Shown here: positions 165-6,281 of the stretch, piece by piece | Layout of the letters: each line of letters begins with the position of its first letter | Numbering within the stretch: the stretch's first letter is position 1 | Assembly: GCA_001443495.1 (NCBI GenBank) | Contig: LDXR01000037.1 | Location: 1 to 6,385, forward strand | Reading direction: 5' to 3' | Source of the DNA: a candidate division NC10 bacterium CSP1-5 | Lineage (GTDB): Bacteria; Methylomirabilota; Methylomirabilia; Methylomirabilales; CSP1-5 | DNA length: 6,385 bases | Program-made: the position numbers and the translations under genes | Notes under the pieces: generated by a model | Told to the model about the DNA's origin: nothing | The model's input: the letters and a program-made list of their open reading frames with translations, nothing else | Databases searched by the model: none

Positions 165-545
165 CTAGCGCCCGACTTTTGCCTCTAGGGCGGCAAGCCT
201 CTCACGGATTTCCAAGGCCTCGTCCAAGCGTTTGTTGGTAAAGGTGAGCTTTTCATCAAGGTGGGCCACCTGCGCGGTGAGCTTTTCATCAAGGTGGGCG
301 ATTCTCTCCTCTAAACGAGCCATACCGGTATCAATCTTGTTGTCGAGTCGAGCCATGCCGGTATCAATCTTGTTTTCCAGCCGGGCTAGCCCGTTGTCGA
401 TCTTATCGTCAATTCTCTTTATTTCGCTCCGGAGGCTTTTGATCTCGCCCTCTATAGAGGCGAGCCTGTCCTTGACAGCCTGCATCTCAGGGAGGATCAT
501 CCCTTGAAGGATCTTCTGGACAGTAGCAATAGTGGCACCGGCCAT
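165..545 (-). CDS. Small coiled-coil protein built of 11-residue repeats
   Basis: This 126-residue protein is soluble and highly charged, with no signal peptide or membrane segment. Residues 1-37 form an amphipathic start with a hydrophobic ILQGMILPE stretch. Residues 38-112 are a continuous predicted coiled coil with an 11-residue (hendecad) period, visible as RLENKIDTGMA, RLDNKIDTGMA and HLDEKLTAQVA, broken by one 7-residue unit (RLEERIA). The C-terminus ends in a short leucine-rich helix (IRERLAALE). The repeat is also visible in the DNA as 33-bp tandem units. The ATG lies 7 nt after a possible TATAAA -10 box and has no clear Shine-Dalgarno sequence, so a near-leaderless mRNA is possible. 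Many genomes carry uncharacterised coiled-coil proteins of this general build. An oligomerisation or adaptor role is only a guess. Confidence 0.7.
   Translation of the reverse strand: MAGATIATVQKILQGMILPEMQAVKDRLASIEGEIKSLRSEIKRIDDKIDNGLARLENKIDTGMARLDNKIDTGMARLEERIAHLDEKLTAQVAHLDEKLTFTNKRLDEALEIRERLAALEAKVGR
243..299. repeat. 33-bp tandem repeat inside the coiled-coil gene (pair 1)
   Basis: A 24-bp stretch at 243-266 recurs exactly at 276-299, a 33-bp period equal to 11 codons. It encodes the two AHLDEKLT units of the minus-strand coiled-coil gene. Exact identity suggests recent duplication or slippage. Confidence 0.85.
316..407. repeat. 33-bp tandem repeat inside the coiled-coil gene (pair 2)
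   Basis: Positions 316-341 and 349-374 match with one difference (A324 versus G357). A third, more diverged unit starts at 382. All are spaced by 33 bp and encode the RLxNKIDxGxA hendecads. The third unit is older or has been under less homogenisation. Confidence 0.8.
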
Positions 546-552
546 AAAAAAG

Positions 553-582
553 TTTATAGCACGGGGAGGCGTCCGACAGCAA
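553..582 (-). promoter_or_regulatory. Candidate promoter of the coiled-coil gene
   Basis: On the minus strand TTGCTG (582-577) and TATAAA (558-553) are separated by 18 bp, and the ATG begins 7 nt after the -10 box. Transcription would start at or next to the start codon, giving a leaderless or nearly leaderless mRNA, which agrees with the lack of a ribosome binding site. The -35 box is weak. Confidence 0.3.
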
Positions 583-612
583 CAAGAAAAAGGCTCCCGA
601 ATTTCGCAAAAG

Positions 613-1203
613 ATGAGAGAAAGACTATTTCATCTATTGTTGATTGCGTGTTTCGCATTTCTCTTCTATAGCAACAGTTTCGGTAATTTCTTCGTCTGGA
701 ACGACTGGACTCTAATTATCGAGAATTATCTAGTTAAAGACTGGAGCAACCTGCCGGAGATCTTTACCAGTGCTTTTTGGAAGCCTCTCTTGGGAGAGCC
801 TCCTCAAATCTACCGGCCTCTCGTCTTGCTGAGCTTTACGGCAGACTTTTTGCTCTGGGGCCTGAATCCCTGGGGCTACCATCTCAGCAATCTTTTGCTC
901 CATGTCTTGAACTCCCTCCTCGTCTACTCCCTGATGGGGTTCTATACCTCCCCGCTTACCGCATGCGTCGGGTCTCTTCTCTTCGCTGTCCATCCCATTC
1001 ATACGGAGGCCGTCACCTATATTTCTGGAAGGGTAGAGCTTCTTATGTCGCTCTTCCTTCTGGGCGGAACAGTTGTTTTTCTCGCCACACTCTCGGTTGG
1101 GATAAAAAGGCTTGAACAGAGGATGCAACAAGATACAAGACTTCGGCAACGCGTAAGGCATCTATGTATGATTCTGAAAAAAGGTAGAAAGAGACAATAT
1201 TAA
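613..1203 (+). pseudogene. Truncated TMTC/DUF1736-type membrane protein (N-terminal fragment)
   Basis: The first ~160 residues match the N-terminal membrane region of TMTC-like proteins, which are GT-C-fold membrane proteins that normally continue into more transmembrane helices and TPR repeats (roughly 500-800 residues). Visible landmarks are a first helix (5-22), FVWNDWTLIIEN (27-38), IYRPL (67-71), GYHLSNLLLHVLN (88-100) and FAVHPIHTEAVTYISGR (124-140). In the family the first loop usually reads WDD; here it is WND, so a key acidic residue may be lost. After residue ~163 the sequence turns into a basic tail (KRLEQRMQQDTRLRQR to GRKRQY) unlike the family and partly shared with repeat copy A. 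All TPR repeats are missing. I chose ATG 613 because the open frame back to GTG 532 overlaps the divergent gene and adds no family-like sequence. Probably a non-functional remnant. Confidence 0.6.
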
Positions 1204-3080: not shown

Positions 3081-3102
3081 GGGCCTGCAATTCAGACAGT
3101 GG
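3081..3102 (+). repeat. Left terminal inverted repeat of the insertion sequence
   Basis: CCTGCAATTCAGACAGT (3084-3100) is the exact reverse complement of 5501-5517. Including flanking bases, 20 of 22 positions pair between 3081-3102 and 5499-5520. The two copies enclose both transposon genes and nothing else, as expected of terminal repeats. Confidence 0.8.
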
Positions 3103-3284
3103 GGGAAAAGCGCACGTGTAGAATGAGCAGCAAGGAACGGGTTTCAACCGAGCGGGGTTGTGATGGGGACGAAGGGGATTTTTCCCAGCGGGTTCTCAGT
3201 TGTTAGGGAGCGTTGTGGGGGCAGTAGTACCTAGGCTTACTTTAAGAATCAGCAGACTCGGCTGGTTTTACCGGTTTCTGGCCG

Positions 3285-3312
3285 ACGCACGACCACTAGG
3301 GCGGTCGTGCGT
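3285..3312 (-). terminator. Hairpin at the transposase 3' end, stop codon in the loop
   Basis: ACGCACGACC (3285-3294) and GGTCGTGCGT (3303-3312) are perfect complements, a 10-bp GC-rich stem with an 8-nt loop. The transposase TAG (3298-3296) sits in the loop. No T-tract follows on the minus strand, so it is not a classic intrinsic terminator. It may stabilise the mRNA end or limit outward read-through toward the kinase gene. Confidence 0.45.
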
Positions 3313-4990
3313 TATCGAGTTGATGGGCCAAACTGCGGCGGAGTCTACGTGTCTTTGCCAGTATTTTCTTGCGAGCCTGCTCGTTGAGGGTAAGCACTAG
3401 TTCCTGGTGCTGGAGTGGGCTCAGACAGGCCACGTAGTGCTGGTAATAGATCAGAATGACAGTGGTGGTGGGACGCAGGAGTTCCAGGGTGCGAGTGCGG
3501 GTTTTGGGATTGAGTTCCTTGCGGCCGGCCCGCAGCAAGTACCACTGCAACAGGCTGTAGGTGAGCAACACGAAGACGACCTGATTGACAATCAGGCGAA
3601 AGGCGCACGAAGAGAAAGCCTCTAGGTCAGAGAAGCACTTCAGTTGGCGATGGCGCTCTTCAATGGTGGTGCGTAGGGCGTAGTTCTGACGGCCCCCTGT
3701 CGGATCATTAATAGGTGCGGTATCCAGCAGCACCCAGTAATCCTGATGACCATCGGCGTAGACTTCGCGGTTGACGATGGCGTTCAGGGGAACGGGACAT
3801 GTCGAAAACGTCTCCAGCCCTGTGACCGTCGCGACTTCGGAACGAATCAGAGTGGTAGAGGCCGCTGGAGTCTGCGCCTGAGCCTTGGCTTTACGCCGGA
3901 GCAGGGTCTGCTGTCTGGCCTCCTCGCGCTTTCGAATGCGCTCGGGTCGATGCATAGGAAGCGGTCTGGGATGGGGTGGTGGCGGCACCCAGGGCTGGAA
4001 ATCTAACACACCGCCTGCGGCCAGACTCACGACATCCTGATAGATATCCATATTGCGGCGCGCCGGAATCAGCACATCGATTCCCCACTCCTGTTTGCAG
4101 CGGCCGATCTCGGGGCCATCCAGGAAACCGCGGTCCACAATCAGCCGCTTGAGGACTCCCTGGCCATGGAACTGGACGAACTGCTCGACCAGGCTGTAAA
4201 GAATGGGGCTCTCGTGGTCCTTGCCGGCCGTGACTTCCAGGCCAGCGTAGAAAAAGAACTCGGCGGCCCGATTAGTGTGGATCAGGCTGACCAGCTTGTA
4301 GCAGCGGCGCAAGACGCAACGGGCCCGCTGTTGAGCTGTTAAGTTCCGGCCATCGACGGGGTGGTTGTGTTCGTCAAACAGTAGAACCGACGAACCCTCG
4401 TAGTGGCTGTTGTCGGGGACAAACAGATAAGTGGCATCCCCAATGAAAATCCCCTCGGAATCAAAGGCATGGTGCTGTTTGAAGATGCCCACCACGTCTC
4501 GGTTGAACCACCTCTGCAGCAACTTGGCATCGGTTCTCCGGGCCATCTTGCGTAGATAGTCCTGATCGCAAGGAGTCTGGCGATCGTACTCGTTCTTGTC
4601 ATTGAAACCCTCACAGCGCAACGACACGTCTCCCGTCTGCGGGTGCGTGACCTTATGTCCCATCTGAGGGCCAAAGGCATGGATCATCCCACCCGAGCGC
4701 ACTACATAGGGAAAGGCGTGGAAACGATGGACTCCGTGAAAGCGCAGGGAGATATCACTGGCAATGTAAACCCACAGGGGAACATCGTGTTTCTTGCACG
4801 GGGAAGGGTAAGTATCCGCCAATTTCTGCAGCACCTTTCTATCGGTAATGGCACGAAAGAAGTCCGCCTCGGACACTTCCCCCACCCCTTCAACATAATC
4901 AAACTCGCCCCGGCGAAACGCCTCCACCACCAAGGCATCGTTACGCTCAAAGAGCATCGCCGCTGAGGTTTGTTCAGTAGACTCTGCCAT
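3296..4990 (-). CDS. DDE transposase, IS4 superfamily (YREK type)
   Basis: This 564-residue protein shows the IS4-fold catalytic core: first aspartate D185 in IGDATYLF, second aspartate D286 in LIVDRGF, and glutamate E444 in YALRTTIEERHRQLK. The last segment fits the Y-(2)-R-(3)-E-(6)-K signature exactly (Y437, R440, E444, K451). Between D286 and E444 lies a long insertion rich in proline and basic residues (about 335-375), as in other IS4-superfamily enzymes with an inserted region. It would cut and join the element ends as a DNA-bound oligomer. I start at ATG 4990, one nucleotide after the DUF6788 gene's TGA. The frame stays open back to 5254, but those 88 codons run antiparallel to nothing known and simply overlap the upstream gene in another frame. 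A GAGAGG about 9 nt upstream may act as ribosome binding site. Confidence 0.93.
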   Translation of the reverse strand: MAESTEQTSAAMLFERNDALVVEAFRRGEFDYVEGVGEVSEADFFRAITDRKVLQKLADTYPSPCKKHDVPLWVYIASDISLRFHGVHRFHAFPYVVRSGGMIHAFGPQMGHKVTHPQTGDVSLRCEGFNDKNEYDRQTPCDQDYLRKMARRTDAKLLQRWFNRDVVGIFKQHHAFDSEGIFIGDATYLFVPDNSHYEGSSVLLFDEHNHPVDGRNLTAQQRARCVLRRCYKLVSLIHTNRAAEFFFYAGLEVTAGKDHESPILYSLVEQFVQFHGQGVLKRLIVDRGFLDGPEIGRCKQEWGIDVLIPARRNMDIYQDVVSLAAGGVLDFQPWVPPPPHPRPLPMHRPERIRKREEARQQTLLRRKAKAQAQTPAASTTLIRSEVATVTGLETFSTCPVPLNAIVNREVYADGHQDYWVLLDTAPINDPTGGRQNYALRTTIEERHRQLKCFSDLEAFSSCAFRLIVNQVVFVLLTYSLLQWYLLRAGRKELNPKTRTRTLELLRPTTTVILIYYQHYVACLSPLQHQELVLTLNEQARKKILAKTRRLRRSLAHQLDNARPP

Positions 4991-4991
4991 A

Positions 4992-5375
4992 TCAGGGTGC
5001 CTCTCGGCGCAGCTTCTCGATACGATCCAGCAAAACCAACATCTCCCTGCAAATCTCCGACACCCGAGCCCGGGCTCGGCGAAAACGCAAATACTCTTGG
5101 CTCTTCTCACGCAGTTCGGCCAGTCTGTCAGGAGGGATCGATAGCAGCCGGGTCTTGCCAAGCTCACTCCAGCTGAGGACCATACTGCGATGCAGCTTGC
5201 CTTGTGTACAGGCACAGGAGGGCTTGCCGCACTTTCGGGCCATCTCATAGACATTGCCCTTGACCAGCGGGGTACGCCCGAAGACCACTTGCAGAGATCT
5301 TTGCAGGTCTGTCAGAAGACGCCGTAAGGCCAAGCGCAGGCGGCTGAGGTCTTGGAGTTGGTCTTTCTTCTGCAT
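4992..5375 (-). CDS. DUF6788-like transposon accessory protein
   Basis: This 127-residue protein has a leucine-rich helical start (1-35), then KGNVYEMARKCGKPSCAC with clustered cysteines C49, C54 and C56. A beta-rich segment follows (MVLSWSELGKTRLLSIPP, about 65-82), then a C-terminal helical, probably coiled region (85-124). This order, with the G-N-V-Y-E, C-G-K-P-x-C and L-S-W-S motifs, is what I know of DUF6788 proteins, which are commonly found next to DDE transposases. The cysteines suggest a small metal-binding site and a DNA-binding or regulatory role, but the function is not established. It is the first gene of the element, and the transposase ATG begins one nucleotide after its TGA. 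The ATG sits inside the palindrome CTGCATGCAG (5370-5379) with no Shine-Dalgarno sequence, 8 nt after a perfect -10 box. Confidence 0.85.
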   Translation of the reverse strand: MQKKDQLQDLSRLRLALRRLLTDLQRSLQVVFGRTPLVKGNVYEMARKCGKPSCACTQGKLHRSMVLSWSELGKTRLLSIPPDRLAELREKSQEYLRFRRARARVSEICREMLVLLDRIEKLRREAP

Positions 5376-5437
5376 GCAGTGATATTATATCACATACAGA
5401 TCATCGCAAGTCAAGACAAAAAATCCAAGACCTCAGC
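5343..5437 (-). repeat. 14-bp inverted repeat spanning promoter and start codon of the IS operon
   Basis: GCTGAGGTCTTGGA (5343-5356) is the exact reverse complement of TCCAAGACCTCAGC (5424-5437). One arm lies inside the first codons of the DUF6788 gene, the other upstream of its promoter. The 67-bp interval contains the promoter, the start codon and two smaller palindromes. RNA entering from outside the element would contain both arms and could fold over the start codon. RNA from the element's own promoter would contain only one arm. Confidence 0.7.
5384..5414 (-). promoter_or_regulatory. Promoter of the transposase operon, embedded in a palindrome
   Basis: On the minus strand TTGACT (5414-5409) is followed after 19 bp by a perfect TATAAT (5389-5384). 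A TG one base upstream makes an extended -10 (TGATATAAT), which can compensate for the long spacer. The -10 box sits in the middle of GTGATATTATATCAC (5379-5393), a palindrome with 7-bp arms that could be an operator. The ATG follows 8 nt after TATAAT, implying a leaderless transcript. Confidence 0.55.
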
Positions 5438-5498
5438 TAAAATGTTTGTGGAAGCTTGATGAGAACCTACTGTGGTGCGGGATCAGGAGCCTCTTTTT

Positions 5499-5520
5499 CT
5501 ACTGTCTGAATTGCAGGTCC
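5499..5520 (-). repeat. Right terminal inverted repeat of the insertion sequence
   Basis: ACTGTCTGAATTGCAGG (5501-5517) pairs exactly with 3084-3100. It marks the outer boundary upstream of the transposase operon. A small inverted repeat, GTCCT/AGGAC (5517-5521 and 5526-5530), straddles the junction. Confidence 0.8.
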
Positions 5521-5614: not shown

Positions 5615-5827
5615 CTACCGCTTAGCGCTCTCGTGGTGCTCTTTCGCTTTCTTGTAAATTTGCTCCACGTCCATCCCTTTGAAGATTTTTTCCTGGATAA
5701 CGAGATAGTCGCCTTCTCCCTTAGAAAAATGGCGCAGGAACCTGACCGCCCCGCTATACCCCAGAGCGCTAATTAGCGCCTTAATCCCGCTATCCACCAG
5801 ATCGCGGTCGCTCTTAACCTTGGCCAT
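5615..5827 (-). CDS. Small partner protein of the PIN module (putative antitoxin)
   Basis: This 70-residue protein is probably all-helical and charged, with no recognisable ribbon-helix-helix or AbrB signature. Its most distinctive part is ALGYSGAVRFLRHFSKGEGDY (about 21-41). A core like G-x-x-x-A-x-R-F-L-x-x-F with a following G-D-Y recurs in small proteins I associate loosely with PIN genes, but I cannot name the family. I chose ATG 5827 because GAGGGTGA lies 5 nt upstream; a GTG at 5836 in the same frame would add three residues. The gene overlaps the end of the PIN gene by 14 nt, so translation is likely coupled. By context it would neutralise the PIN nuclease. If so, the order is toxin first, the reverse of most type II modules. 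Confidence 0.75.
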   Translation of the reverse strand: MAKVKSDRDLVDSGIKALISALGYSGAVRFLRHFSKGEGDYLVIQEKIFKGMDVEQIYKKAKEHHESAKR

Positions 5828-6281
5828 ATTTCTCACCCTCGCCTCTTATGAACTCCACAGGATTGATAGCCTTCATCTTCAGCTTGCGCCGCCGTCTATG
5901 CCTTTCGAAGGCCGTAATCAGGGCATCATCGCATGTGACGAAATAATCGCATTCCGCAGTTTCAGCGCAGGCTAGGTGCACGGCATCTCTCGCCTTCACC
6001 TTGCTCCTTTTCAGTAAGCTTCTAGCTAGACTCATTATTTTTGGCGATGGGACAATTGTATCCGTACAAAGGCGCGATAACAACTCCACTCCTTCTTTTC
6101 TGTCCTCGTGAGGGTTTAAACTGTTCTCATAATCCAACATGAAAGACCATAATAACGCCAGCCTTTTAGCCTCGGCTAAGGCAAAGATGCCCTCAATGGC
6201 AGCGGTTTCCAGCCTGATCCTAAACTGATTCTGATCATCGAAGCATCGATTATAGACATTCATGTCGCAGTATAGTCTCAA
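5814..6281 (-). CDS. PIN-domain protein, putative toxin ribonuclease
   Basis: This 155-residue protein is a full-length PIN domain. The acidic metal-binding residues are in place: D6 in the first strand (LYCDMNVYNR), E52 (MLDYENS), D99 (KARDAVHLA) and D118 in YFVTCDDALI. PIN toxins of VapC-like modules cleave RNA with Mg2+ or Mn2+ held by these residues. I start at TTG 6281: GGAG sits 5 nt upstream, and the first ATG inside the frame (M7) would remove the essential D6. The C-terminus (INPVEFI) is typical of chromosomal PIN proteins. It is followed with a 14-nt overlap by a small putative antitoxin. The TTG start may keep toxin synthesis low. Target RNA unknown. Confidence 0.88.
   Translation of the reverse strand: MRLYCDMNVYNRCFDDQNQFRIRLETAAIEGIFALAEAKRLALLWSFMLDYENSLNPHEDRKEGVELLSRLCTDTIVPSPKIMSLARSLLKRSKVKARDAVHLACAETAECDYFVTCDDALITAFERHRRRRKLKMKAINPVEFIRGEGEKYGQG

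Follow-up and report, generated by a model that had tools for sequence, protein, structure and literature searches.

Promoter sequence as a candidate mask for the transposase start codon in read-through RNA of a DUF6788 insertion sequence

Whether a mobile element can keep its transposase genes silent when transcription enters from a neighboring gene is the question raised by one inverted repeat in the window analyzed here, a 6,385-nucleotide stretch of contig LDXR01000037.1 from candidate division NC10 bacterium CSP1-5. IS10 and IS50 are protected from impinging transcription by an inverted repeat whose first arm precedes the site where transposase transcription begins and whose second arm covers the translation start, and only outside transcripts carry both arms. 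The original prediction held that a perfect 14-bp inverted repeat near the start of orfA could work in the same way in this DUF6788 element. Our analysis points to a second, shorter repeat, in which sequence of the element's own promoter would pair with the orfA start codon.

The element and its predicted near-leaderless start

The insertion sequence occupies positions 3085 to 5516 on the minus strand (2,432 bp), with ends CTGCAATTCAGACAGT ... ACTGTCTGAATTGCAG and terminal inverted repeats common to relatives L003 to L006; the terminal repeats CTGCAATTCAGACAGT are located at 5516 and 3085. The left terminal repeat, CTGCAATTCAGACAGTAG (5499 to 5516, minus strand), is the same or almost the same in six relatives, and the right one, ACTGTCTGAATTGCAG, spans 3085 to 3100 (minus strand). 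Two minus-strand genes lie between them. orfA (4992 to 5375) encodes a 127-amino-acid DUF6788 protein (PF20586, 42.4 bits versus a cutoff of 27.2), and orfB (3296 to 4990) encodes a transposase that passes the cutoff for DDE_Tnp_1 (PF01609). Against the IS4 family model, the transposase gave a weak hit of 22.2 bits, far below the cutoff of 115. The orfB ATG lies a single base past the orfA stop codon (TGATATG), so translation of orfB may depend on that of orfA. The loop of a perfect 10-bp hairpin at 3285 to 3312 (ACGCACGACC/GGTCGTGCGT) contains the stop codon of orfB, and no T run follows the hairpin.

A search of the organism's own genome showed the element to be single copy, with no further copies found. 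DNA searches of 195 relatives gave no true match, and the viral contigs and plasmids searched gave no match to the element. The IS4 family target duplication is about 10 bp (PMC2266710). A 10-bp direct repeat, AGCTGCTTAT, on both sides of relative L006 is likely a target duplication, and none was seen in the flanks of the window copy.

Just upstream, two minus-strand open reading frames (ORFs), 5615 to 5836 and 5814 to 6281, point toward the element, making read-through RNA into it plausible. The first is a 73-amino-acid ORF and the second encodes a PIN-domain protein; together they look like a toxin-antitoxin pair. Elsewhere in the window are a 126-amino-acid ORF, coiled-coil-like and with internal repeats (DTGMARLDNKI; 165 to 545, minus strand), and a 223-amino-acid membrane-protein-like ORF without a Pfam family (532 to 1203, plus strand), which may be a truncated gene.

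The orfA ATG (5375 to 5373) is preceded by a predicted −35 box, TTGACT (5409 to 5414, minus strand), and a predicted −10 box, TATAAT (5384 to 5389, minus strand). Because the −10 box ends 8 nucleotides before the ATG, the native mRNA should be nearly leaderless. The promoter spacer is 19 nucleotides, above the ideal, and a stricter scan (16 to 18 nucleotides) omits this promoter. No Shine-Dalgarno sequence precedes the start codon here (TATAATATCACTGC-ATG) or in the relatives. Bacterial leaderless mRNAs lack a Shine-Dalgarno sequence and begin with the AUG or only shortly before it; orfA shares the former trait, and the closeness of its AUG to the 5′ end is predicted from promoter spacing alone.

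Scanning and genome searches yielded six relatives (L003, L004, L005, L006, L035, and L036) with orfA 62 to 75% identical, which together with the window element make up a core group of seven. Their leaders align almost gap-free, since TGCAATTC and the ATG are 140 nucleotides apart in six of the seven elements and 139 apart in L006. Throughout the core group, a −35-like TTGAC (TGGAC in L004, TTGAT in L035) precedes the ATG, the −10 box is 8 to 10 nucleotides ahead of it, and the Shine-Dalgarno sequence is missing. The ATG of three core relatives comes straight after a stop codon, so an alternative start farther upstream is not available there. More widely, the best promoter match had a −10 box ending 7 to 10 nucleotides before the start in 14 of 45 DUF6788 loci, versus 0.25 in shuffles; for this count, start codons adjacent to the best promoter were chosen, and transcription starts were predicted from promoter spacing. 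A second DUF6788 group, most of it with a Shine-Dalgarno sequence, has 31 to 38 nucleotides between the −10 box and the start. One family thus has two translation layouts, a leadered one and a near-leaderless one in which 5 to 11 nucleotides separate the −10 box from the start.

A long outer repeat found in one copy

The 14-bp repeat is real. Its upstream arm, GCTGAGGTCTTGGATTT (5421 to 5437, minus strand), and downstream arm, AACTCCAAGACCTCAGC (5343 to 5359, minus strand), are complementary at 16 of 17 positions, with a perfect run of 14 bp and 61 nucleotides in between. Both arms are inside the element, and their placement is as predicted, with one upstream of the promoter and the other early in orfA (nucleotides +17 to +33), so that the −35 (5414 to 5409) and −10 (5389 to 5384) boxes both fall between them. 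This is the sole perfect 14-bp repeat with a loop of 3 to 100 nucleotides in the window, and 300 dinucleotide-preserving shuffles of the window contained a mean of 0.003 such repeats (loops of 30 to 100 nucleotides). Real DNA is richer in them: 163 kb of other loci held four perfect 14-bp repeats with loops of 30 to 100 nucleotides, or about 0.16 per window length. Elsewhere in the organism's own genome, the 14-mer is present in copies with a single mismatch, but a second pair of outer arms was sought there and not found.

Alignment was the check on which the repeat failed as a family device. At the upstream-arm site, the relatives have TCTTAGGGCCATCG, TCTCTAAGCCCTAT, and similar sequences, different and noncomplementary, and pairing with the orfA partner is possible at 1 to 8 of 17 positions in the six relatives versus 16 in the window. 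This stretch is variable among the six relatives as well. Covariation or compensation of the outer arms was sought in these six nearest relatives, and none was found; all six lack the upstream arm, an outcome that the original prediction itself had named as counting against it. Because they are unconserved and uncompensated, the outer arms are best regarded as a property of this copy, possibly a copy-specific reinforcement and possibly chance.

In predicted folds of the window RNA, opening positions −10 to +16 relative to the orfA start costs 15.8 kcal/mol in read-through RNA versus 2.0 kcal/mol in native RNA, the direction of difference that the prediction called for. With the outer arm scrambled the cost is 12.3 kcal/mol, meaning that the outer arms add about 3.5; it is 13.2 kcal/mol with the inner arm scrambled and 7.5 kcal/mol with both, so within these models the effects of the inner and outer arms on read-through RNA add up. 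The outer stem leaves the start codon in its loop, consistent with the predicted stem-loop region, and the inner structure pairs that codon. Pairing of the AUG largely survives loss of the outer arm, and occlusion is to that extent independent of the repeat first named. Longer upstream RNA also cuts accessibility of +1 to +16 in all six relatives, which are without outer arms, and this counts against the proposed insulation.

A short inner repeat and its recurrence in the family

The inner repeat joins TCTGTATGTG (5391 to 5400, minus strand), a part of the promoter spacer that precedes the predicted start of transcription, to TGCATGCAGA (5369 to 5378, minus strand), which includes the orfA start codon. 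This placement fits the impinging-transcription layout, with a 5′ arm upstream of the predicted start and a 3′ arm on the translation start; the outer 3′ arm starts 17 nucleotides into orfA. Two palindromes described previously, at 5370 to 5379 and 5379 to 5393, are present in the sequence. The second, GTGATATAATATCAC (minus strand), covers the −10 box; compared with the relatives it is not conserved, and it was rejected as a conserved unit.

By itself, the window inner repeat is not significant (P = 0.12 to 0.14). Its position is nevertheless shared by the whole core group: in each of the seven elements, this is where the best repeat between −60 and +40 falls, with its center at −9.0 to −9.5 (half a base off the others in L004) and the AUG in an arm. 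A compensatory change in L006 replaces C-G with A-T, together with a codon 2 change (Q2H), and a compensatory pair distinguishes L038 (T-A) from L039 and L041 (G-C). The arms thus recur in the core group with two compensatory pairs, while a swap control was weak: when upstream and downstream halves were swapped between elements with promoter and start motifs kept, 3 of 25 near-leaderless loci kept P ≤ 0.05, which gives weak support.

Across the wider family, the best repeat between −60 and +40 reached significance (P ≤ 0.05) at 8 near-leaderless loci out of 25, 7 of them with the AUG inside an arm. Of the 12 loci in the other class, 5 had a significant repeat, and there the 3′ arm lay at or adjoining the Shine-Dalgarno sequence. 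For 15 of the 16 loci listed, 67 to 100% of the 5′ arm was upstream of the predicted transcription start. Repeats at the start region numbered 16 versus 4.5 expected (score of 22), a rough figure because G+C-rich DNA inflates the background repeat count.

Occlusion was scored by comparing how much energy it takes to open the docking site (AUG or Shine-Dalgarno sequence) with real versus shuffled upstream sequence. At P ≤ 0.05, it was detected in 7 of 25 near-leaderless loci, leaving 18 without significant occlusion, and in 8 of 12 others (15 of 37 together). Control ORFs showed it in 10 of 110 cases with AUG docking and 2 of 20 Shine-Dalgarno genes (12 of 130 in total). Fisher tests against controls gave P values of 0.018 (near-leaderless, AUG), 0.0015 (Shine-Dalgarno), and 3 × 10⁻⁵ (combined), although related loci were counted separately and these family figures therefore overstate independence. 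The window locus scored P = 0.15. Smaller hairpins of the same plan appear to recur in part of the DUF6788 family.

Proposed mechanism, alternatives, and known systems

The element may well shield its transposase genes from entering outside transcription in an IS10/IS50-like manner, the anti-start arm being supplied by the promoter sequence; we give this reading about an even chance. The promoter would sit nearly atop the orfA start, so that native mRNA would have its 5′ end on the AUG or beside it, lack any 5′ arm, and leave the AUG open. RNA initiated in a neighbor would include the promoter sequence, in which TCTGTATGTG could pair with TGCATGCAGA, and in this copy the 14 to 17 bp of the outer arms could pair in addition. 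An AUG that is paired, internal, and without a Shine-Dalgarno sequence should support poor translation of orfA and hence of orfB, and selection may act on the resulting insulation. The claim that only outside RNA carries both arms and hides the start holds up in part, favored by family-level statistics and folds, while the arms it named are unconserved in six relatives. More tentatively, and somewhat short of even, a general design rule for DUF6788 elements can be suggested: the promoter spacer and −10 region would be complementary to the start codon (near-leaderless loci) or to the Shine-Dalgarno sequence (leadered loci), any RNA containing the promoter sequence, and hence not made by that promoter, would be translationally shut, and sequences would compensate while geometry is kept.

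The main rival, which we consider rather unlikely, is a DNA operator, in which a dimeric repressor, perhaps the transposase or the DUF6788 protein, binds the palindromes at the −10 box and start and thereby turns off its own promoter, and RNA pairing is incidental. Palindromes are indeed concentrated over the −10/start region, half-sites resembling one another, TCTGTATG, are found repeatedly in the core group as well as in L039 and L041, and the arms of L019 and L063 end at the edge of the Shine-Dalgarno sequence. However, the repeat center follows the ribosome site and not the transcription start, relative to which it lies at −1.5 to −16 in most near-leaderless loci (+4 in L022) but at +3.5 to +7 in most Shine-Dalgarno loci. 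Arm spacing also varies between groups, and all but one of the seven core elements retain a T-G wobble (common register), with two more wobble pairs, read as G-U in RNA, in the L039 inner repeat; variable spacing and retained wobbles are easier to reconcile with RNA than with a DNA palindrome. No further copies of TCTGTATG occur close to the core element ends.

It is unlikely, too, that the outer repeat is an accident or template-switch scar and that a near-leaderless start alone insulates, with an internal AUG lacking a Shine-Dalgarno sequence being little used whatever the fold. That account is in keeping with an outer arm missing from all six relatives, in a stretch variable among them, with the many loci that are near-leaderless in spacing and lack a Shine-Dalgarno sequence, and with the background frequency of long-loop 14-bp repeats in comparable DNA, about 0.16 per window length. 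It leaves unexplained the compensatory pairs and the excess occlusion at Shine-Dalgarno loci (8 of 12 versus 2 of 20 controls). Highly improbable is the opposite reading, that the outer 14-bp arms are themselves the evolved device: perfect pairing, the right geometry, and about 3.5 kcal/mol of extra cost for opening the start region speak for it, but the arms are neither conserved nor compensated in six relatives.

If promoter sequence does mask the start codon, the window element would resemble IS10 and IS50 in the arm placement of its inner repeat relative to a predicted transcription start. Those elements hide a Shine-Dalgarno sequence, whereas the hidden site in the window element would be the AUG of an mRNA predicted to be near-leaderless. 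The IS200 transposase is of a class other than the one in the window. RNA structure also restricts transposase expression in IS200, but in a different layout, in which one stem-loop halts impinging transcripts and another covers the ribosome binding site (PMC3196728). In ISPpu9, translation of transposase mRNA is likewise governed by 5′ RNA structure, involving a long leader and two small RNAs but no read-through sensor (PMC8450116). The principle is therefore already known from IS10 and IS50, and in another form from IS200, and the DUF6788 case would be a variant of it because of the promoter-on-start layout. As the original prediction supposed, the literature searched contained no paper naming DUF6788 or describing such insulation in DUF6788 elements. 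If the proposal is correct, promoter sequence alone lets part of these elements distinguish transcripts of their own from foreign RNA, and near-leaderless translation is tied to read-through protection, a link that reporters could test. In the window, the conspicuous long repeat is the least conserved part.

A separate observation concerns L046, where imperfect 31-nucleotide arms span −48 to +19 at a DUF6788 start. The −35 box is in the 5′ arm, the first codons are in the 3′ arm, and part of the −10 box is in the loop.
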